Assembly: GCA_017442855.1 (NCBI GenBank)
Contig: JAFSPM010000024.1
Location: 124,001 to 188,000 of the forward strand
Direction: 5' to 3'
Origin: Bacteroidaceae bacterium
GTDB lineage: Bacteria > Bacteroidota > Bacteroidia > Bacteroidales > Bacteroidaceae
Length of the DNA: 64,000 nt
Part shown: positions 6,268-41,626 of the stretch, piece after piece
Position numbering within the stretch: position 1 is the stretch's first letter
Layout of the letters: each line of letters begins with the position of its first letter
The notes under the pieces: model-generated
What the model was told of the DNA's origin: nothing
Database searches by the model: none
The model's input: only the letters and a program-made list of their open reading frames with translations
Program-made: the position numbers and the translations under genes

Positions 6268-6654
6268 TTAATATTTTCGTTTCAATATTTCCGACCAGAT
6301 GATGGCTTTGCGAGCATCCTCGGCAGAGTCTATCGCATATTCCGAGCGGGGCTGTACCTCAATCGGCTGGACGATGTTAGCCGTACTCCTCACGCCCTCG
6401 TTCTTAAACTCTGCCCGCTGGCTCATGTCTCCCGTCTGTCGCCAGGAGGTTACCGGCTCGCTTTTCCTAACTTTCTTAGCAGGTTTCTTCACTTGGGCAG
6501 GCTGCCGGGGCTGTTGTGTGGGAATATTCACAATAACAGGCTTAGGCCCTTCTTGCTCCTTCTGGGCGTTCTTCACCACTTTGTTTATCTTGTCGAAGAA
6601 GATACATACAGCTATGAATCCAGCGAAAAACAAAAAGTCTATCAGTCCGTCCAT
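6268..6654 (-). CDS. Small single-span membrane protein, function unknown
   Basis: A 128-residue protein I do not recognise by function. Residues about 4-20 form one hydrophobic membrane segment (LIDFLFFAGFIAVCIFF). It is followed by a Lys/Pro/Gln-rich, probably disordered cytoplasmic or periplasmic stretch, and then a conserved-looking C-terminus (SAEDARKAIIWSEILKRKY). A strong promoter sits 25 bp upstream of the ATG, which supports a real gene. It is probably cotranscribed with the CoA-transferase gene 22 bp downstream. No catalytic motif is visible. Confidence 0.75.
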   Translation of the reverse strand: MDGLIDFLFFAGFIAVCIFFDKINKVVKNAQKEQEGPKPVIVNIPTQQPRQPAQVKKPAKKVRKSEPVTSWRQTGDMSQRAEFKNEGVRSTANIVQPIEVQPRSEYAIDSAEDARKAIIWSEILKRKY

Positions 6655-6679
6655 AATAAGCCAAATCTAATATTTGGTG

Positions 6680-6710
6680 CAAATATACACATTATTTTTG
6701 TGCCATCAAA
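6680..6710 (-). promoter_or_regulatory. Bacteroidetes promoter for the 6654-4740 operon
   Basis: On the minus strand TTTG (6710-6707) is followed after 19 bp by TATATTTG (6687-6680), a complete -33/-7 pair. The ATG at 6654 lies 25 bp beyond the -7 box. Confidence 0.8.
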
Positions 6711-6763
6711 TATATATGTGTGAAAATAGCCGAGGGGTTACGACAGTTTTGAATGCAAAAAGC

Positions 6764-7129: not shown

Positions 7130-8500
7130 ATGGAGGAAATGACTGGGGCAGACTTAAAATCAGCAACTACAGGAACCAAGAAACTTTTTATTGAGACGTA
7201 TGGTTGCCAAATGAATGTAGCCGATAGCGAAGTAATTGCTTCTATCATGAAGATGGCAGGCTATGAGGTAACCGAACAGCTTGACGAAGCCGATGCTGTG
7301 TTTTTGAATACCTGCTCGGTGCGCGACAATGCCGAGCAAAAGATATATAACCGTTTGGAAGCATTGCATGCTATGCGCAAGCGACATCCACTTGTCATCG
7401 GTGTACTGGGGTGTATGGCGGAGCATGTGAAAGATGATTTGATTGAGCACCATCATACCGATTTGGTGGCAGGGCCTGATGCTTACTTGAGCTTGCCCGA
7501 CTTGATTGCTTCTGTAGAGGCTGGGCATAAGGCTATCAATGTAGAACTTTCTAAGACGGAAACCTATCGTGATATCATTCCTTCACGCATTTGTGGCAAT
7601 CATATCTCTGGTTTTGTTTCTATCATGCGTGGATGCAATAACTTTTGCACCTATTGTATTGTGCCTTATACCCGTGGCCGTGAACGAAGCCGTGATGTGG
7701 AGAGCATCCTGAACGAGGTGGCCGATTTGCAATCGAAAGGATATAAGGAAGTGACATTGCTGGGTCAGAATGTCAACTCCTATCGATTTGAGGGGGCAGA
7801 TGGCATCGTTACTTTTCCTATGTTGCTAAGGTTGGTGGGTGAGTCATTCCCCACTATGCGAATACGCTTCACCACTTCCCATCCGAAGGATATGAGTGAT
7901 GAGACCTTGCATGTGATTGCCGAGGTTCCTAATGTCTGCAAACATATCCATCTGCCTGTGCAAAGTGGCAGTGACCGCATTCTCAAGTTGATGAATCGTC
8001 ATTATGACCGCAAGTGGTATATGGAACGTGTGGCTGCTATCCGTAATATCATTCCTGATTGTGGTCTATCAACCGACATCTTTTGCGGCTTCCATTCTGA
8101 AACAGAGGAAGACCATCAAATGTCATTGTCTTTGATGGAAGAATGTGCATACGATGCTGCTTTTATGTTCAAGTATTCCGAGCGCGAGGGCACTTATGCT
8201 TCCAAGCATCTGGAGGATGATATCCCGGAAGAGGTGAAGATACGTCGCTTGAATGAGATTATCGCTTTGCAAAACCGTTTGTCAGCTGAGGCCAATGCCC
8301 GTGCGGTAGGCAAGGAATACGAAGTACTGGTAGAGGGCGTTTCCAAGCGCTCACGCGACCAACTGTTTGGCCGTACAGAACAAAACCGTGTGGTGGTGTT
8401 TAACCGAGGCAACCACCACATCGGCGAGTTGGTAAACGTGAAGATAACAGCTTCTACCTCTGCTACCTTGCTGGGCGAGGAAGTGTTTTTCTGGGGTTGA
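7130..8500 (+). CDS. miaB: tRNA-2-methylthio-N6-isopentenyladenosine37 methylthiotransferase MiaB
   Basis: Radical-SAM enzyme that adds the 2-methylthio group to i6A37 in tRNAs reading UNN codons. The order of domains is clear. The N-terminal UPF0004 domain carries three cluster cysteines (YGCQMN, NTCSVR, LGCMAE). The radical-SAM core has CNNFCTYC, with cysteines at about 169, 173 and 176 counted from ATG 7130. The C-terminal TRAM domain spans the last 65 residues. QMNVADSE and the VRDNAEQK segment favour MiaB over RimO or MtaB. An alternative ATG lies at 7139. Length 456 aa is normal. No partner gene is cotranscribed. Confidence 0.95.
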   Translation: MEEMTGADLKSATTGTKKLFIETYGCQMNVADSEVIASIMKMAGYEVTEQLDEADAVFLNTCSVRDNAEQKIYNRLEALHAMRKRHPLVIGVLGCMAEHVKDDLIEHHHTDLVAGPDAYLSLPDLIASVEAGHKAINVELSKTETYRDIIPSRICGNHISGFVSIMRGCNNFCTYCIVPYTRGRERSRDVESILNEVADLQSKGYKEVTLLGQNVNSYRFEGADGIVTFPMLLRLVGESFPTMRIRFTTSHPKDMSDETLHVIAEVPNVCKHIHLPVQSGSDRILKLMNRHYDRKWYMERVAAIRNIIPDCGLSTDIFCGFHSETEEDHQMSLSLMEECAYDAAFMFKYSEREGTYASKHLEDDIPEEVKIRRLNEIIALQNRLSAEANARAVGKEYEVLVEGVSKRSRDQLFGRTEQNRVVVFNRGNHHIGELVNVKITASTSATLLGEEVFFWG

Positions 8501-8604
8501 TATGCAGAAGAAGACGGGGTGTAGGATACCATCGGATAGGGAGATTGGTCGTAGCCCGCGACTTTTTAGCGTTCGCCAAAAAGTCTTGTACCGTCCGCAG
8601 AAAA

Positions 8605-8655
8605 CAATCATAGCGTACGCTGAGAATATTTTCGGCGCACGCTATGAACCGTTTT
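8605..8655. terminator. Hairpin between convergent miaB and the S41 protease
   Basis: CATAGCGT and ACGCTATG form an 8-bp stem with a long loop that can itself pair in part (CGTACGC/GCGCACG), followed on the plus strand by AACCGTTTTTCT. It most likely ends the miaB transcript. Confidence 0.55.
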
Positions 8656-8672
8656 TCTAATAGGAGCTGTGG

Positions 8673-10343
8673 CTAAGGATTCACAGAAAGAATCTCGTGA
8701 TACTTGGCCTTGTCAGAAAGAATCTCCTTTGCCCGTTTCAGATCTGGGTCATCTTTCAGCTGTTCGATGATGCTGCCTTTCTGATAGTAGTATCGCTTTA
8801 CGATTTCCTCAGAGATCAGCGGTTTGATATCGCTGGCAAAGAAATCGAGGTCGTGGTCAAGGTTATGTTGTAATTTCTTCTCCAAGGCCTCAAACTCAGC
8901 TGTGGCATCTTGCTCGTAGCCTTCAAATTCAGCCATTGCTTTCAGATCTTTCAGCAGCTTCTCACTTTGCTGGTCGTACTTGAAGTCGGTAGACTTCACC
9001 TTCTCCTTGAACTCCTCATAATCCTGGTCGGTCAGTACGAAATCTTGAGCAGCTGCAATTTTCTTATGCTTGATGCAATAGTCGGTGGCATAGTCAAAGA
9101 TCAGGTTGTCGCGCGACAGATAATAGATAATATTAGGTGTCTGTTTCTTCTCCACTACGATATCTGGCGTTACGCCACCACCATCACGCACTTCACGACC
9201 AGCTGCGGTGTGGAATACGGTAGTCAGACTGTCGGGGATGCGTCCTACGCTTCCATCAACATTTCGATGAGAGTAGTCGATGGCTTGCACGCATCGTCCG
9301 CTTGGGATATAATACTTGGAGGTAGTCAGTTTAATGGTTCCTCCGTAGGGCAAGGGACGAGTGGTTTGTACCAATCCTTTTCCGTATGTGCGTGTTCCGA
9401 TAATCACTGCACGGTCAAGGTCTTGCAGAGAACCTGCTAAGATTTCAGAAGATGAAGCCGTACCGCTATTTACCAGAACAGCAATAGGTATGTCAAGGTC
9501 GAGAGGTTCTCTCAGCGTTTTATATGTCTCGCTGGCTTGACGCGTTTTGCCCCTGGTGGTTACCAGTGTTTGTCCTTTGGGTACAAAGAAATTGGCTATT
9601 TCGATGGCTTCGTCAAGCAAGCCACCGCCATTGCTGCGTAGGTCGATTATTAAAGAGCTGATGCCTTGTGCTTTCAATTCTTGGAAAACACGTTTGAACT
9701 CCTTTGACGGGTTGCCGGAAAATGTGCTTAGATTAATATATCCAATGCCATCTTCTATTTTTGCATAATAAGGAATCAACGGAAGCTCTATGTATTTCCT
9801 GACGATGTTGAAAGTCAGCAGATTCTTCTCTCCCGGGCGTTGCACCTTTAATGTGAACGAGGTGCCGGCATCTCCACGTAACATTTCGCTTACTTGTTGG
9901 TTGTCCTTGCCCAACAGGTCTTCTCCGTCAAGTTCCATGAGAATATCACCTACTTTCAACCCCACCTCGGCAGCAGGCATCCCTTCGTATGGCTCTGAAA
10001 TGACGGAGCGTTTCAGTTGCTCATTCCATGTGATGATAGAACCGATGCCGCCATATTTATTACGGAGCATTTGTTCCAACTCATCCCGGTCGTCTTCTGG
10101 GAAATATACGGTATAGGGATCGAGGGAATATAGCATGTTATCTATACCCTCACGGATGGTTTTGTCGGCATTCAGGGAGTCAACATAGAACATGTCAAGC
10201 TCTTTGACGATGGAGTTGAATATGTCCAGGTTCTTGGCAATCTGGAAATCATGGTTCTCACCTTTTTCAAATCCCCAGAAAGCAACAGCACTTACTGTCA
10301 GCGCCAGTAGGGCGGCTGCATGCCAACTTCTCATTTTCTTCAT
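8673..10343 (-). CDS. C-terminal processing peptidase (S41 family, PDZ domain)
   Basis: Tail-specific serine protease of the CtpA/Prc type (556 aa), exported to the periplasm by an N-terminal signal or anchor segment (residues about 8-24). A PDZ domain at about 90-170 binds the C-termini of substrates. The S41 core follows, with DLRSNGGGLLDEA and the Ser-Lys dyad: S297 in TASSSE and K322 in YGKG, exactly 25 residues apart as in the family. The C-terminal 150 residues are a helical extension common in Bacteroidetes homologues. Its ATG overlaps the stop of the upstream PfkB gene by 4 bp (ATGA), so the two are translationally coupled. Confidence 0.93.
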   Translation of the reverse strand: MKKMRSWHAAALLALTVSAVAFWGFEKGENHDFQIAKNLDIFNSIVKELDMFYVDSLNADKTIREGIDNMLYSLDPYTVYFPEDDRDELEQMLRNKYGGIGSIITWNEQLKRSVISEPYEGMPAAEVGLKVGDILMELDGEDLLGKDNQQVSEMLRGDAGTSFTLKVQRPGEKNLLTFNIVRKYIELPLIPYYAKIEDGIGYINLSTFSGNPSKEFKRVFQELKAQGISSLIIDLRSNGGGLLDEAIEIANFFVPKGQTLVTTRGKTRQASETYKTLREPLDLDIPIAVLVNSGTASSSEILAGSLQDLDRAVIIGTRTYGKGLVQTTRPLPYGGTIKLTTSKYYIPSGRCVQAIDYSHRNVDGSVGRIPDSLTTVFHTAAGREVRDGGGVTPDIVVEKKQTPNIIYYLSRDNLIFDYATDYCIKHKKIAAAQDFVLTDQDYEEFKEKVKSTDFKYDQQSEKLLKDLKAMAEFEGYEQDATAEFEALEKKLQHNLDHDLDFFASDIKPLISEEIVKRYYYQKGSIIEQLKDDPDLKRAKEILSDKAKYHEILSVNP

Positions 10344-11317
10344 ACTTTTGCAATTTTATGTTTGATCTCAATCCATTTCTCTTGTGGAAGCTCTGTTCCT
10401 ATCACTTGCACTACCTCAGCAGCTATGATAGACCCTATCTCAGCACACTGACTGAGGCTGTGGCCATTGATAAGACCGTAAAGGAAACCAGCTGCATAAT
10501 AGTCGCCTGCTCCTGTACTGTCAAGGCAGTTGACCGTCTGTGCCGGTACCTCCGAAAACTGTTCTTTTGTGGCAATAAGCGATCCTTTTTCACCTATCTT
10601 TACTATGACTATTTTGCAATAGTCTGTCAATTTTTTCGCCGCTTCATAAGGTTCGAGGCCAGTAAATGCTTTAGCTTCTTTTTCGTTGGCGAAAATAATA
10701 TCGATGTATTTGTCCACCAAATTAGTGTAAAAGTCATGGTCTTCCTGTATGATGTTATAGCTGGCCATATCCATAACCACCTTCATGCCTGCCTCTTTCG
10801 CCATTTTGGCTCCTCTTTCTATCAACTCGTGGTTTTGTACCAGATAACCTTCAAGGAAAAGGTATTGATATCCATTGAACATTTCCGGCTGTAGGTCCTC
10901 TGCTTTCAGGTCGATTGAAGCGCCCATGTGGCCGGCAAAGGTGCGTTCTCCTCCTTGTGAGATAAATGATGTACATACACCTGAGCTTAGGGTTGGCGAC
11001 AGCACCATTATGTTTTCAACGCCTACATCTGTGAGGCTTTTAGCATATTCCTGACCCACTTTGTCGTGCCCCACTTTGCCAATAAAGCCAACAGGAACGC
11101 CAAGGTGTCCCATTGCCCTGCATGAGTTGGCTATAGAACCTCCAGGAGTAATGGTGACATGATGTTGACCAATCATCTGCTGTATTTTCCCATACAGTTC
11201 ATCGCTGATATGTACCATTCCACCCTTGGGCAGATGCAACGCTGTTAGTATGTCGTCATTTTTTAGGATAACGGAAACATCTGTCAATGCATTACCAAGT
11301 CCTAAAATTTTATTCAT
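10340..11317 (-). CDS. PfkB-family carbohydrate/nucleoside kinase (adenosine kinase-like)
   Basis: Ribokinase-fold sugar or nucleoside kinase, cytoplasmic. The N-terminal segment GLGNALTDVSV, the GGSIANSCRAMGHLG substrate/lid motif and the C-terminal NCLDSTGAGDYYAAGFLYG signature (Asp of GAGD is the catalytic base) define the family. The closest pattern I know is the Bacteroidetes 'adenosine kinase' group, but the substrate cannot be proved from sequence. The start is set to ATG 11317 because a promoter -7 box at 11341-11334 lies inside the longer frame (TTG/ATG 11347). The gene overlaps the protease gene by 4 bp. About 326 aa, normal length. Confidence 0.88.
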   Translation of the reverse strand: MNKILGLGNALTDVSVILKNDDILTALHLPKGGMVHISDELYGKIQQMIGQHHVTITPGGSIANSCRAMGHLGVPVGFIGKVGHDKVGQEYAKSLTDVGVENIMVLSPTLSSGVCTSFISQGGERTFAGHMGASIDLKAEDLQPEMFNGYQYLFLEGYLVQNHELIERGAKMAKEAGMKVVMDMASYNIIQEDHDFYTNLVDKYIDIIFANEKEAKAFTGLEPYEAAKKLTDYCKIVIVKIGEKGSLIATKEQFSEVPAQTVNCLDSTGAGDYYAAGFLYGLINGHSLSQCAEIGSIIAAEVVQVIGTELPQEKWIEIKHKIAKV

Positions 11318-37905: not shown

Positions 37906-37968
37906 CTTATCCTTCTTTTTTTTCGTCAAAAATTATACTTTCGTTATATTTGGTTCTCTTTTATTCTT

Positions 37969-37976
37969 TATATTTG
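37969..37976 (+). promoter_or_regulatory. Promoter -7 box for plug-only protein A
   Basis: TATATTTG, 29 bp before ATG 38005. A TTTG lies at 37949-37952, giving a 16-bp spacer, shorter than usual. Confidence 0.6.
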
Positions 37977-38004: not shown

Positions 38005-38703
38005 ATGAAGAAAATATTAGAAATTTTAGGGATATTTGCACTGCTATTGTGTCAAGCCGTTCAGGCGCAGGAACTGACGGGCACCATCCTGAAGGATGGG
38101 AAGCCACAGAAGAATATCAGGGTGTGGCTGAAACATAATAAGGGTGTTGCCAAGACAGACAAACAGGGGCAGTTCACTTTGTTCAATGTGTTGCCTACTG
38201 ATACATTGGTAATGGGTGTAAGCAACAAGTATGACGCTCAACTGGCTATAGGTTCGCAAAGTAATATCACTATTCATCTAGAAGATGATGGTTTTACTGT
38301 GGAGGCAGGGTTGGATGAGGTAACGGTGACTGCACCTACCAAGATGAGGAAAGAATATACTTCTGTCATTACTTTGAAGAAAATGCGCGTCTTAAATCAT
38401 GATGCCATCATGCGCGAATCTATTAGAAGCGTTTCTGCAGCTATTAAGAGATTTGTGCCTGGGGCGATGCAGATAGGTAGCAGTTCGGAATTGAGCATTA
38501 TACGTGGTCGTAACTCCATGCGATTACCAGAGCCTCCTTTGTATGTCATCGATGGGGTGCCATATGATGTTACAGAAGTTGACAGCTTCCTTGCTATAGA
38601 AGATGTGGCGGAAATTACCGTAGATCGTGATGGCAGTGGCTATGGCGCACGTGGCGCCAATGGCGTGGTAATTATCCGGACATTGAGAGGAAGTGACAGA
38701 TAA
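38005..38703 (+). CDS. Plug-only SusC-like protein A (carboxypeptidase-regulatory-like plus TonB plug, no barrel)
   Basis: 232-residue exported protein. A signal peptide (LLLCQAVQAQ) is followed by a carboxypeptidase-D-regulatory-like beta domain (about 23-105: ELTGTILKDGKPQKNIRVW) and a TonB-dependent receptor plug domain (about 106-225: RGRNSMRLPEPPLYVIDGVPY, then DGSGYGARGANGVVIIRT, the SusC signature at the end of the plug). The frame then stops. A normal SusC would continue with about 700 residues of beta-barrel, and no barrel sequence follows. A second copy lies at 40913-41626 with an 89-bp identical stretch (38113-38201). Both frames are intact with their own promoters, so they look functional. 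Convergent with the histidine kinase gene 8 bp away. Confidence 0.8.
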   Translation: MKKILEILGIFALLLCQAVQAQELTGTILKDGKPQKNIRVWLKHNKGVAKTDKQGQFTLFNVLPTDTLVMGVSNKYDAQLAIGSQSNITIHLEDDGFTVEAGLDEVTVTAPTKMRKEYTSVITLKKMRVLNHDAIMRESIRSVSAAIKRFVPGAMQIGSSSELSIIRGRNSMRLPEPPLYVIDGVPYDVTEVDSFLAIEDVAEITVDRDGSGYGARGANGVVIIRTLRGSDR

Positions 38704-38711
38704 TATTTCCC

Positions 38712-40091
38712 TTATGTTTGGGGCAATGAAAAGCTAAAGGTACTGCCTTTGCCCAGTTCACTTTGCACCCATATTTTACCATTATGTGCATGAACTAAGT
38801 GAAGGGAATTCGTGAGTCCCATTCCGTGTCCATTACGATGACGACCTACTGGTTGTTCAATTCGATAATAAGGCTTGAAAATTTTCTTGATGTGTTGCGG
38901 GGCAATACCCCAACCATTATCCTGTACCATTACCACAGGTACATTGTTTTGTAAAGCAAGGCATATCTGTACCTCTACCCCAGCATCAGCATATTTTACG
39001 GCATTTTCCACCAGGTTGCGGAGAATGCGTTCCACCTTATCGGCATCTACCTCTGGCTTTAAGTTCTGAGGCAACTGGTTATCAATGCTGATGGTATGTC
39101 GTTTGGCCTGATATACCATATCTACTTCCTGCTTTACCGTTTCTGCCAAAAAGGCTATATCTGTAGGCTTCCGGTTGACGATGATGTGCATTCGTTCCTC
39201 ACGAATGGTATTACCCAGTGTCTCAATCTCATGTTGCACATGTCTAAGCATTATTGCATTATGGTTTTCGATATCTTTCATGTCCCCATCTTTCTCTGCA
39301 TCTTTTAGGTTCTCCATAATTGAAATAGCGGTAGTGACAGGCCCTTTCAGATCGTGAATAATGCCACCTGTTGCAGCTTCCCTGTGCGTCAATGCTTGCT
39401 CTTTCCTGCGGATGACAGTGAGTTGTATCAGAACGCATCCCAAAGCCAGCAACATCAGCGAGAAGCTTAATAACAAGGGTAATACCTCAGCTTTCACAAA
39501 GTTCTTTATGGGTATGGATGCTTGCAAAAAAAGAGTCTGCTTTTCTTTTAGTCCAACTCGCTTCATTTCCGAGTAGTTACCCTTTTTGATGCTAGCATCT
39601 CCATAACTTTTCAATTGAATGGTATCTTGATCAAGTAAGGTAAACCGATGAGGAATGTCTGTTTGAAGCCAATAGCAGAAAATACTGTCAAGCACAGGCA
39701 TGTCTATATATATGTTGTGTCTGATGTACCTATCTTGATTATGCATCCTGGTAATCTCTAATTCTGGAACACCTTCCGCACGTTCTTTTCTACCGTCAAC
39801 AATATCAACCCGATAAGTACCATCCTTGACTTGAGGCAAGTTCATAATGCTATCAACAACGTCTTGGGTAGTAAGGTGTAGTCTGATTCCAAACATTGGA
39901 CCTTCCAAATCTTTGAAATGAATCTTTTTTTGCCTGATACCCAATTCTTCTTCCATAGCTATATCCAAAGATTTGTCTATTTGCTTTGACATCTCCTGAA
40001 TATAACCATTATATTTATTCTGTATACCTACAATAAGTAACACCACTATAGCCGTCATGGCCACCAATGCTATGATATAATACTTTTTCAT
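38712..40091 (-). CDS. Sensor histidine kinase
   Basis: 459-residue two-pass membrane kinase. Membrane segments are at about 5-23 and 203-226, enclosing a periplasmic sensor domain of about 180 residues with no recognised family. HisKA carries the phospho-accepting H246 in GGIIHDLKGP. The ATPase domain has the N box (NLVENAVKYAD), G1 (VQDNGWGIAP), F box (IFKPYYRIE) and G2 (GHGMGLTNS). Its ATG overlaps the stop of the response-regulator DNA-binding part by 4 bp. Regulator and kinase form one operon running between two convergently placed plug-only genes, so a shared signal is plausible but unproved. Confidence 0.93.
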   Translation of the reverse strand: MKKYYIIALVAMTAIVVLLIVGIQNKYNGYIQEMSKQIDKSLDIAMEEELGIRQKKIHFKDLEGPMFGIRLHLTTQDVVDSIMNLPQVKDGTYRVDIVDGRKERAEGVPELEITRMHNQDRYIRHNIYIDMPVLDSIFCYWLQTDIPHRFTLLDQDTIQLKSYGDASIKKGNYSEMKRVGLKEKQTLFLQASIPIKNFVKAEVLPLLLSFSLMLLALGCVLIQLTVIRRKEQALTHREAATGGIIHDLKGPVTTAISIMENLKDAEKDGDMKDIENHNAIMLRHVQHEIETLGNTIREERMHIIVNRKPTDIAFLAETVKQEVDMVYQAKRHTISIDNQLPQNLKPEVDADKVERILRNLVENAVKYADAGVEVQICLALQNNVPVVMVQDNGWGIAPQHIKKIFKPYYRIEQPVGRHRNGHGMGLTNSLHLVHAHNGKIWVQSELGKGSTFSFSLPQT

Positions 40092-40336
40092 TCTTTTACC
40101 ATCAGTTTATATCCTATACCCCAAATAGTCTCAATCTCCACACCGCTGTCAGGTGTAAAGAACTCCCTTAGATGACAAACCAAGTTGTTTAGGCTCGCAG
40201 CTGTGCTATCATCACCTCTCCATAGGTGTTGATATATCTCTGCTCTCGTCACCGCATTACCTCGGTTCATAGCCAATAGATTTAGCAATCGACTCTCAAG
40301 GGCAGTAAGTTGAAACGTCTGCTTACCATCGCTCAA
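40088..40336 (-). CDS. OmpR-type DNA-binding domain, C-terminal half of a response regulator split by a stop codon
   Basis: 82-residue winged-helix Trans_reg_C domain (FQLTALESRLLNLLAMNRGNAVTRAEIYQHLW, DSTAASLNNLVCHLREF, IETIWGIGYKLMV). It continues in the same reading frame as the receiver at 40346-40753; only one TAA codon (40348-40346) and three codons separate them. A TTG at 40336-40334 could start it as a separate protein. Otherwise it is made only by readthrough, or not at all. Ends with a 4-bp overlap with the kinase gene. Confidence 0.7.
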   Translation of the reverse strand: MSDGKQTFQLTALESRLLNLLAMNRGNAVTRAEIYQHLWRGDDSTAASLNNLVCHLREFFTPDSGVEIETIWGIGYKLMVKE

Positions 40337-40345
40337 TGTCTGGTT

Positions 40346-40753
40346 TTACGTTTTAAAGTCGAAGGTGCCTATTTTGATAGCAGGATTACCAGCAATTAAA
40401 TTGCGTTTTTGACTGTTGATGATAGCAGTCAGTTCATCCATCTGCAAGGGCTTTTTTATATAATAGTTGCCACCTGCTTTGAGTGCTCTCACCATTTCAG
40501 CGCTCTCGGTATGGGAGGTAATAAAAATGATGGAGGCAAATGGAGCAGCATTTTCGATGGTTGGCAGTGACCAAACACCATCAGCACCTTCAAAACCGAT
40601 GTCTAATAGAATAATATCGGGCTGAGTTTCTTTGACACTTGCACTGACATTCTCCAAATCATATAGGCAATCACAGTCGTCACCGTTTTTCTCTAAATGC
40701 CTCTTCACGAGAGCACACAAGGCAATATCGTCATCTATTATCAGAATCTTCAT
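40346..40753 (-). CDS. Response-regulator receiver domain (N-terminal half, followed by in-frame TAA)
   Basis: 135-residue receiver: acidic pocket IIDDD at 5-9, phosphorylation site D51 in LLDIGFEG, T79 in FITSHTES, K101 in YIKKP. The frame stops with TAA after GTFDFKT, which is exactly where the linker to the DNA-binding domain begins; translation past it reads NQTLSDGKQTF, a normal OmpR-type linker. The whole regulator (40088-40753) would be 221 residues. A single C-to-T change in a CAA codon would explain the stop. A promoter -7 box lies upstream, so transcription seems intact. Confidence 0.8.
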   Translation of the reverse strand: MKILIIDDDIALCALVKRHLEKNGDDCDCLYDLENVSASVKETQPDIILLDIGFEGADGVWSLPTIENAAPFASIIFITSHTESAEMVRALKAGGNYYIKKPLQMDELTAIINSQKRNLIAGNPAIKIGTFDFKT

Positions 40754-40771
40754 ATTTTATCTTCTATGTTA

Positions 40772-40779
40772 CGAAGGTA
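40772..40779 (-). promoter_or_regulatory. Promoter -7 box for the two-component operon
   Basis: TACCTTCG on the minus strand, one mismatch to TAnnTTTG, 18 bp before ATG 40753. Confidence 0.5.
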
Positions 40780-40877
40780 AGCAATTCAAGTCATAATCGT
40801 TTGCTCTTTGAAGTTAAAAAAGCATTAATGCTGAACAAATATTACAATTAGATTATATTTTTTATGTTACCATACTA

Positions 40878-40885
40878 TACTTTTG
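40878..40885 (+). promoter_or_regulatory. Promoter -7 box for plug-only protein B
   Basis: TACTTTTG, 27 bp before ATG 40913. The -33 region is a T-rich run without a clear TTTG. Confidence 0.55.
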
Positions 40886-40912
40886 TTTTGCTTAATATAA
40901 AACACTAAGGCT

Positions 40913-41626
40913 ATGAAAAAAGTGATTGGACTTTTAGGACTATTAGCACTGATATTATGCCAAGCCATTCGAGCACAAGAACTGACGGGAACTATCTTGA
41001 AAGATGGGAAGCCACAGAAAAATATCAGGGTGTGGCTGAAACATAATAAGGGTGTTGCCAAGACAGACAAACAGGGGCAGTTCACTTTGTTCAATGTGTT
41101 GCCTACTGACACATTAGTAATGGGTGTAAGCAACAAGTATGATGCTCAGTTGGCCATAGGGTCGCAGAGCAACATCACTATTCATCTAGAAGATGATGGC
41201 TTTACTGTTGAGGCAGGGTTGGATGAAATAACAATAACTGCGCCCACTAAAATGAGGACAGAATATACCTCTGTAATTACTTTGAAGAAGATGCAGGTGG
41301 TTAATCATGATGTGATAATACGGGAGAATATTAAGTCAGTTTATGATGCGGTAAGACGTATTATACCTGGAGCGCAATTACAAGTTGATCCCTTAACTTT
41401 TGAAAAACATTTTAATATTATTCGAGGTCGTAATTCTATGCGTAATCCTGAGCCTCCTTTGTTTGTCATCGACGGGATTCCATATGAGTCAGGTGTTGAT
41501 GTTGATCACTTCCTGTCAATGGAGGATGTGGCAGAACTGTCCGTTGACCGTGATGGCAGTGGCTATGGTGCACGTGGTGCCAATGGGGTGGTGATAATTC
41601 GTACACTTAATGGTAGTGACAAATAA
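40913..41626 (+). CDS. Plug-only SusC-like protein B (paralogue of the 38005 gene)
   Basis: 237-residue exported protein with the same layout as copy A: signal peptide, carboxypeptidase-regulatory-like domain, TonB plug domain, then a stop directly after DGSGYGARGANGVVIIRTLNGSDK. Residues about 22-105 are almost identical to copy A, and 89 bp (41021-41109) match it base for base. The plug domain diverges more (for example VDPLTFEKHFNIIRGRN against GSSSELSIIRGRN, plus small insertions). This is a pattern expected from duplication followed by gene conversion of the 5' half, or from selection to vary the plug. A strong terminator follows at 41659. Confidence 0.8.
   Translation: MKKVIGLLGLLALILCQAIRAQELTGTILKDGKPQKNIRVWLKHNKGVAKTDKQGQFTLFNVLPTDTLVMGVSNKYDAQLAIGSQSNITIHLEDDGFTVEAGLDEITITAPTKMRTEYTSVITLKKMQVVNHDVIIRENIKSVYDAVRRIIPGAQLQVDPLTFEKHFNIIRGRNSMRNPEPPLFVIDGIPYESGVDVDHFLSMEDVAELSVDRDGSGYGARGANGVVIIRTLNGSDK

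Follow-up and report, generated by a model that had tools for sequence, protein, structure and literature searches.

A 64-kb stretch of contig C12 (the window) from a Bacteroidaceae metagenome-assembled genome (MAG; 2.76 Mb in 49 contigs, 80% complete) encodes two exported proteins that consist of a SusC-like N-terminal extension (NTE) followed by a TonB plug, located on either side of an opposite-strand two-component system. The arrangement is real and conserved and is not described in the literature searched, and the barrel-less plugs appear to belong to the regulon of a two-component system linked to peptides. We document here the anatomy and conservation of these proteins, their association with a kinase/regulator pair, and a direct-repeat box with a fixed promoter geometry (Table 1). 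This common box, its tie to peptide and RND-pump operons and a stop codon within the regulator had all been missed by an earlier note on the same DNA. Among the matches listed in a genome scan, the closest named relatives are the rumen Bacteroidaceae/Prevotellaceae MAGs RGIG4876, RUI513 and RUG828; genomes, contigs and retrieved loci are designated below by G, C and L numbers, respectively.

The earlier note had reported two complete open reading frames (ORFs) that end just after the SusC signature, without a barrel but with promoter elements of their own, and all of this holds: both proteins stop 6 residues past GANGVVIIRT, the ORF list contains no barrel downstream of either, and a TAnnTTTG element precedes each of them. 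The signal peptides were read by eye. The NTE of both proteins is CarboxypepD_reg-like, with scores below the Pfam cut-offs. Pfam Plug matches protein 2 above its cut-off (7e-9) and returns no match at E≤1 for protein 1, which is nevertheless aligned by the SusC/RagA model TIGR04056 (5.7e-22). The two proteins score 77.9 and 65.3 bits with this model over positions 14-207, far under its full-length cut-off of 368 bits. They thus possess the NTE and plug of SusC/RagA receptors, while the ORFs end before the 22-strand barrel that completes the TIGR04056 length. A profile of the plug family, run against the PDB, reports 12 distinct sequences, 9 of them SusC/RagA-type, all in their N-terminal part. 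The AlphaFold2 model of the plug protein (predicted local distance difference test, pLDDT, 79; predicted template modelling score 0.47) comprises an NTE barrel (residues 22-93), a poorly ordered linker (~103-125) bearing a TonB-box motif, and then the plug. Foldseek ranks a SusC NTE structure (9hfj) first, SusC 5fq6 second and BtuB sixteenth, all with a probability of 1.00, yet with E-values above 0.001. The LDEVTV and LDEITI motifs resemble VDEVVV, given as the TonB box of Bt1763 in the portion of PMC7782687 available, and their role as TonB boxes is putative. An E-[VIL]-T motif is found in 15/15 members of the two-component-linked clade, in 3/4 plug3-type rows and in 0/12 rows of the two outer clades.

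Could these ORFs be relics, i.e. SusC genes truncated beside an unrelated kinase and evolving under relaxed selection? The missing barrel and the interrupted regulator of the window locus would fit such a scenario, and the earlier note had named full-barrel close relatives and relaxed selection as what would speak against a functional system. A homologue search of 60 genus genomes points the other way. Its best 34 rows are open frames of 205-284 residues from 13 genomes, full-length SusC frames appearing only from an E-value of 7e-18 on. In a tree, 32 plug-only proteins are split from 41 SusC N-termini by one branch with a Shimodaira-Hasegawa-like approximate likelihood ratio (SH-aLRT) of 100. 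When SusC proteins of the own genome and of the same operons are added, the split between 51 SusC and 33 plug-only rows persists (97 and 98). These trees were built by a quick method with SH-aLRT as the only support; the underlying alignment A1 leaves aside 3 near-copies among the 34 plug-only rows, the first tree omits the copies L087, L088 and L090, and the enlarged tree also omits the long rows L137 and L148. The early stop is kept, the C-terminal ends and the promoters being conserved among plug-only relatives, and the plug genes are under purifying selection: dN/dS amounts to 0.05-0.18 in the 10 unsaturated of 12 gene pairs, ratios that are rough because dS exceeds 1 in most pairs. Recent truncation was rejected on these grounds, and we regard the relic scenario as scarcely credible.

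A scan of genome contigs yields, among the matches listed, 80 loci with 4 plug-only and 76 SusC-type frames (at most 3 cut by a contig end), and an order-wide search for the plug proteins returns mostly SusC among the matches listed. Five tandem plug-only genes of G331 (L198 5738-9544) form a second lineage, distinct from the window family and placed on the SusC side of the enlarged tree. Further plug-only proteins occur inside SusC-SusD operons (L049 1407-11534, and similarly L048 and L053-L055); the one of L049 lies between lipoprotein-like genes, one of them with a fasciclin domain, and a gene for an MG2-domain protein.

The association with the two-component system recurs, as the earlier note had anticipated. 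The kinase search covered 158 genus genomes with at most 10 candidates scored per genome, so that its counts are lower bounds, and found at least 17 kinase matches in at least 15 genomes. Nine kinase loci share at least 42% identity, and plug genes adjoin seven of them (the window, G013, G027, G122, G092, G101 and G006), whereas none of the 8 loci at 30-36% identity has a plug gene within the stretches fetched. Adjacency was judged from ORFs of at least 80 residues inside these stretches, some of which lie at contig ends (G006, G133, G118, G068). The plugs flank the pair on both sides in 4/7 loci (window, G027, G101 and G013, the latter with one plug inverted), while in G122, G092 and G006 a tandem of two plugs stands on the side of the regulator and, in G006, runs into the contig end within its second gene. 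In 7/7 loci a plug gene and the regulator gene are divergently transcribed, with a spacing of 159-173 bp. The position of the cassette varies between genomes: at the RNase H-esterase site of the window, G092 has a BlaI-M56-plug3 group, and in RUI513 (L089) a plug3 on its own lies next to RNase H. A likely route is recombination between plug paralogues.

Both window plug promoters contain, 19 bp before the -7 element, the box ATTAyA-N5-RTTAyAT, a direct repeat with a period of 11 bp. Direct repeats of this period are the kind bound by OmpR/PhoB-type regulators. The box is present in 11/17 plug upstream regions, i.e. those of both window plugs and of nine plugs of relatives, one of which (in G006) lies on another contig, with no kinase within the 18 kb around it. 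The pattern ATTANANWTNNRTTAYAT returns 29 matches in the seven genomes carrying the system, versus 2 for the reversed pattern; the own genome contributes 5, versus 0 reversed, and five other small genus genomes contain 3, versus 5 reversed. As the bare pattern is common genus-wide, the distance between box and -7 element was used as the test. A TAnnTTTG sequence lies exactly 19 or 20 bp past the box at 18/28 sites of the seven genomes and at 0/40 control boxes (Fisher 1e-9), and at all five boxes of the own genome. Without the 11 sites that defined the pattern, the figures are 7/17 versus 0/40 (p=7e-5). This test took 28 of the 29 boxes (G101:C8 being left out); the 40 controls are the first among the matches listed and not a random sample, two coming from G068, which has a kinase at 35% identity, and they skip some sites of G066, G067 and G069 and all of G014, G018 and G070. 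Three further boxes in G036/G057 have no such -7 element, although one of these sequences is too short to judge. A relaxed pattern that includes the -7 element matches exactly twice across the window, at the two plug promoters. The absence of the geometry from the controls led us to reject the idea that the box is a mere AT-rich promoter feature.

The genes behind the box extend beyond the plugs. In the own genome, the seven independent sites with the fixed geometry include an operon of DUF1573, NVEALA, propeller and signal-peptidase proteins on C15, the end of C15, and an RND adaptor on C22. Those in relatives precede RND adaptors in both G013 and G101, in G006 a lipoprotein-like gene that has an RND adaptor behind it, and, in G101, a TIGR04149 precursor of a ribosomally synthesized and post-translationally modified peptide (RiPP) with a plug gene directly next. 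The adaptors of relatives are 79-80% identical to the own one, which is followed by RND genes, and outer-channel genes are also present after the adaptors in own C22, G013, G006 and G101. Some of the ten independent sites that lack the geometry precede related genes as well, namely the adaptor of G122, plug3 of G092 and two truncated regulators of G101. On a single contig of G101, an exporter ATPase with an HlyD protein, the precursor, the plug-kinase-regulator-plug cassette, an RND pump and NVEALA genes follow one another. The second kinase of the own genome adjoins TIGR04149 precursors and a TIGR04148 radical SAM maturase, and among the eight kinases of greatest distance, four have a peptidase-ABC exporter nearby (only these four, picked by eye, were scanned, and the profiles confirmed them). 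A shared regulation of plug, peptide-secretion and pump genes has good support from the gene neighbourhoods and promoters and is likely. RiPP precursor or maturase genes adjoin paralogues of the two-component system (own C12:1-12000 and G101), and a simple leader scan of the window recognised no RiPP gene beside its locus. In locus L078 (own C12), two TIGR04149 precursors (6515-6721 and 10737-10949) and the TIGR04148 maturase (8003-9487) stand beside the second kinase/regulator pair.

Alternatively, the box might be bound by a different regulator, the plug genes and the two-component system adjoining one another only through recombination at hot spots. The cassettes do occupy different sites, and these genomes hold further OmpR-type regulators, among them RR2 of the own genome and proteins reduced to a DNA-binding domain; a box match immediately precedes two of the latter (L237 and L238). 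However, G027, G092, G122 and G013 each combine the box with at least one kinase match of the family (a single one being scored), the plug and regulator promoters diverge in every one of the seven loci, and the own RR2 cluster (C12:1-12000) contains no match to the pattern. We consider this alternative unlikely. Regarding the proteins of L237 (4850-5333) and L238 (6407 downward), the box lies directly upstream of a 147-residue, regulator-like protein, truncated but with its DNA-binding domain retained; propeller lipoproteins accompany its relatives in L038, L039 and L074.

The two-component system enclosed by the plugs is present on the opposite strand, as the earlier note had it, but an in-frame stop in the regulator was overlooked there. 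The kinase contains the H-box and the ATPase domain. The receiver ORF of the regulator stops at a TAA codon, past which Trans_reg_C (59 bits) can be read on in the same frame, and the regulator is therefore broken or split in the MAG. Receiver and Trans_reg_C in one frame, as expected of the OmpR/PhoB family, are thus not found in the window but are found in the six relatives with the locus, where the regulator is uninterrupted, as it is in two plug-less paralogues. Compared with G027, the sequence around the stop has the appearance of a one-A gain and a one-A loss within some 10 bases, either through a real pair of mutations or through an assembly error. A TTG codon soon after the TAA could restart the DNA-binding half. 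Orthology to RprXY was rejected, the RprY equivalog NF051850 giving 53.8 bits for the receiver and 40.5 bits for the DNA-binding half, against a cut-off of 370.

Table 1. Coordinates of the plug-kinase-regulator-plug locus within the window
Feature	Position	Strand	Remark
Direct-repeat box, plug gene 1 (ATTATACTTTCGTTATAT)	37932..37949	+	pattern match
-7 element TATATTTG, plug gene 1	37969..37976	+	offset 19 from box end
Plug-only protein 1, 232 aa: signal peptide, NTE, TonB-box motif LDEVTV, plug	38005..38703	+	
Membrane histidine kinase, 459 aa, unassigned periplasmic domain	38712..40091	-	
Trans_reg_C (DNA-binding) half of response regulator, past the stop	40088..40345	-	
Response-regulator receiver ORF, 135 aa, ending at in-frame TAA 40346-40348	40346..40753	-	
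Direct-repeat box, plug gene 2 (ATTACAATTAGATTATAT)	40841..40858	+	pattern match
-7 element TACTTTTG, plug gene 2	40878..40885	+	offset 19 from box end
Plug-only protein 2, 237 aa: signal peptide, NTE, TonB-box motif LDEITI, plug	40913..41626	+	

We propose, as the reading that we moderately favour, that the locus supplies the regulatory and periplasmic parts of a regulon linked to peptides. Its kinase would sense an envelope signal, and the OmpR-family regulator would bind the direct repeat immediately in front of the promoter and switch, up or down, the flanking plug-only genes, the NVEALA/RiPP peptide operons with their signal peptidase, and the RND pumps. The plug-only proteins, predicted to be periplasmic, would contribute a SusC-type NTE, a TonB box and a plug. 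Most likely, they present the TonB box, together with a plug face that varies, to TonB or TonB_C-bearing sensors, or else bind secreted peptides, as feedback or immunity.

Several observations weigh against this proposal. The system of the sequenced strain may be broken or split, given its interrupted regulator, and the structure model of the kinase, built from a two-row alignment, reaches a pLDDT of 42. Two kinase paralogues (own C12:4 and G101 C56:2403) have no adjoining plug. The box was first found by eye and tested afterwards, its bare pattern is unspecific (112/157 genus genomes), and 10/28 boxes have no -7 element at the expected distance. Moreover, 6/17 plug upstream regions lack the box within 160 bp, namely those of the second genes of two tandems, of plug3 in G027 and in G013, of the own C31 plug and of the first plug of G101, which directly follows the boxed precursor gene. 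Finally, NVEALA genes occur in 84/157 genus genomes, far more than carry the kinase, and in 5/7 system genomes, not being found in G027 and G092, and the peptide link therefore holds for five of the seven.

Recognition between TonB box and TonB_C is favoured as the mode of action of the plugs because M56 proteins that end in TonB_C occur, with a BlaI-type repressor, next to plug3 (G092, G013) or plug1 (G027), which is an association. In the own genome, 3/4 TonB_C domains belong to M56 or propeller proteins and one to a 233-residue TonB-like ORF, and the M56 cluster has no plug beside it; in locus L258 (own C15, 1435-4735), TonB_C occurs in an M56 peptidase, in two copies, and in a propeller lipoprotein.

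The plugs and the kinase sensor are diversified. Between the two window plugs the NTE residues are identical (proportion of nonsynonymous differences, pN, 0; of synonymous ones, pS, 0.35), while residues 127-165 strongly differ (pN 0.40), which points to gene conversion in the N-terminal half and to variability of the plug face. The window kinase differs from that of G027 mainly in the sensor (pN 0.42, versus 0.04 in the kinase part), and from that of G013 at 0.10 and 0.14, respectively; it looks mosaic. Since sensor and plug are both variable and recombining, and plug and kinase adjoin in seven genomes, the plug protein might be a direct ligand of the periplasmic domain of the kinase, i.e. 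a signal carrier. However, sensor and plug types agree only partly, G122 combining a G027-type sensor with a G013-type plug, and the kinase model is unusable for judging a complex. A signal-carrier role is accordingly doubtful in our view.

Of the roles suggested in the earlier note, TonB decoy and periplasmic signal carrier are still candidates; its third one, regulation of a SusC made elsewhere, has gained no support so far. The plug of Bt1763 is able to leave its barrel, according to the available part of PMC7782687, and a plug acting in trans for a barrel encoded elsewhere could thus be imagined. Yet the 21 TIGR04056 matches of the own genome (80% complete; non-SusC barrels were not checked) include no recognisable plug-less SusC barrel, which weakens this candidate, and full-length SusC proteins retain their own plug; we hold a role in trans to be very improbable. 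Three of the 21 matches are intact full-length SusC, one has an in-frame TAG, and several others are weak and partial. The TAG (G000:C14:64852-67467) lies in a long SusC match, of which this genome has few.

A more specific version of the favoured reading is offered tentatively, as an unlikely extension. The stand-alone plug/TonB-box proteins could be a periplasmic immunity or feedback device against self-secreted Cys-rich peptides, in which the kinase would sense the peptide or its damage, and the regulator would raise peptide secretion, pump and plugs together. The loose plugs would occupy TonB, or the peptide, so that the cell's own TonB-dependent channels stop importing the peptide, and sensor and plug face would diversify by recombination.

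The locus resembles several known systems in part. With SusC/RagA (TIGR04056) the plug-only proteins share the NTE, the TonB-box position, the plug and its GANGVVII end, but they have no barrel, form a separate lineage and possess their own boxed promoters. The pair resembles OmpR/PhoB-type systems, RprY being the nearest named NCBIfam model, in its receiver and Trans_reg_C and in its membrane kinase with HATPase_c; it differs in falling far below the RprY cut-off, in the regulator split by a stop and in its link to plug genes. FecA-type cell-surface signalling likewise couples the periplasmic portion of a TonB-dependent receptor to regulation. In the window, however, the receptor part is a separate protein, a kinase and regulator replace the sigma/anti-sigma pair, and Pfam reports no STN domain at E≤1 in either plug protein, on which ground this type of signalling was rejected. 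The BlaI-M56 (BlaR1-like) pairs with TonB_C also adjoin plug-only genes (G027, G092, G013), but are protease/repressor and not kinase pairs, and are absent beside the window locus.

A further parallel comes from graspetide (ATP-grasp) loci, for which the accessible part of PMC8939145 describes, as peculiar to their Bacteroidetes branch, a regulator of the OmpR family, and also TonB-receptor-like proteins; a regulator beside peptide clusters is therefore of a known kind. Paralogues of the window kinase similarly adjoin TIGR04149/TIGR04148 genes. In contrast, plug-only proteins, the box and RND/NVEALA operons are not described in that part of PMC8939145, and the window locus has no recognised RiPP gene next to it. 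Unlike regulators beside peptide clusters, plug-only regulon members and the box were not found in the literature searched: among the papers listed, titles and abstract openings hold no description of stand-alone plugs in this layout, nor was the word NVEALA found, and the phrase "stand-alone plug" in the available text of PMC7568257 refers to a BtuB receptor.

TonB plugs are usually studied as parts of barrels, and the function of the NTE is stated as unknown in the available part of PMC7782687. A conserved, barrel-less plug lineage under separate regulation, retaining both NTE and TonB box, would lend itself naturally as a soluble system for probing the roles of NTE and plug. The box, in turn, would provide a concrete, testable promoter code connecting NVEALA peptides, RiPP precursors and RND pumps of Bacteroidales with a two-component system. 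That an old, conserved family of plugs appears to share this DNA switch with genes for peptide secretion and pumps suggests a use of loose plugs within a bacterial peptide response.

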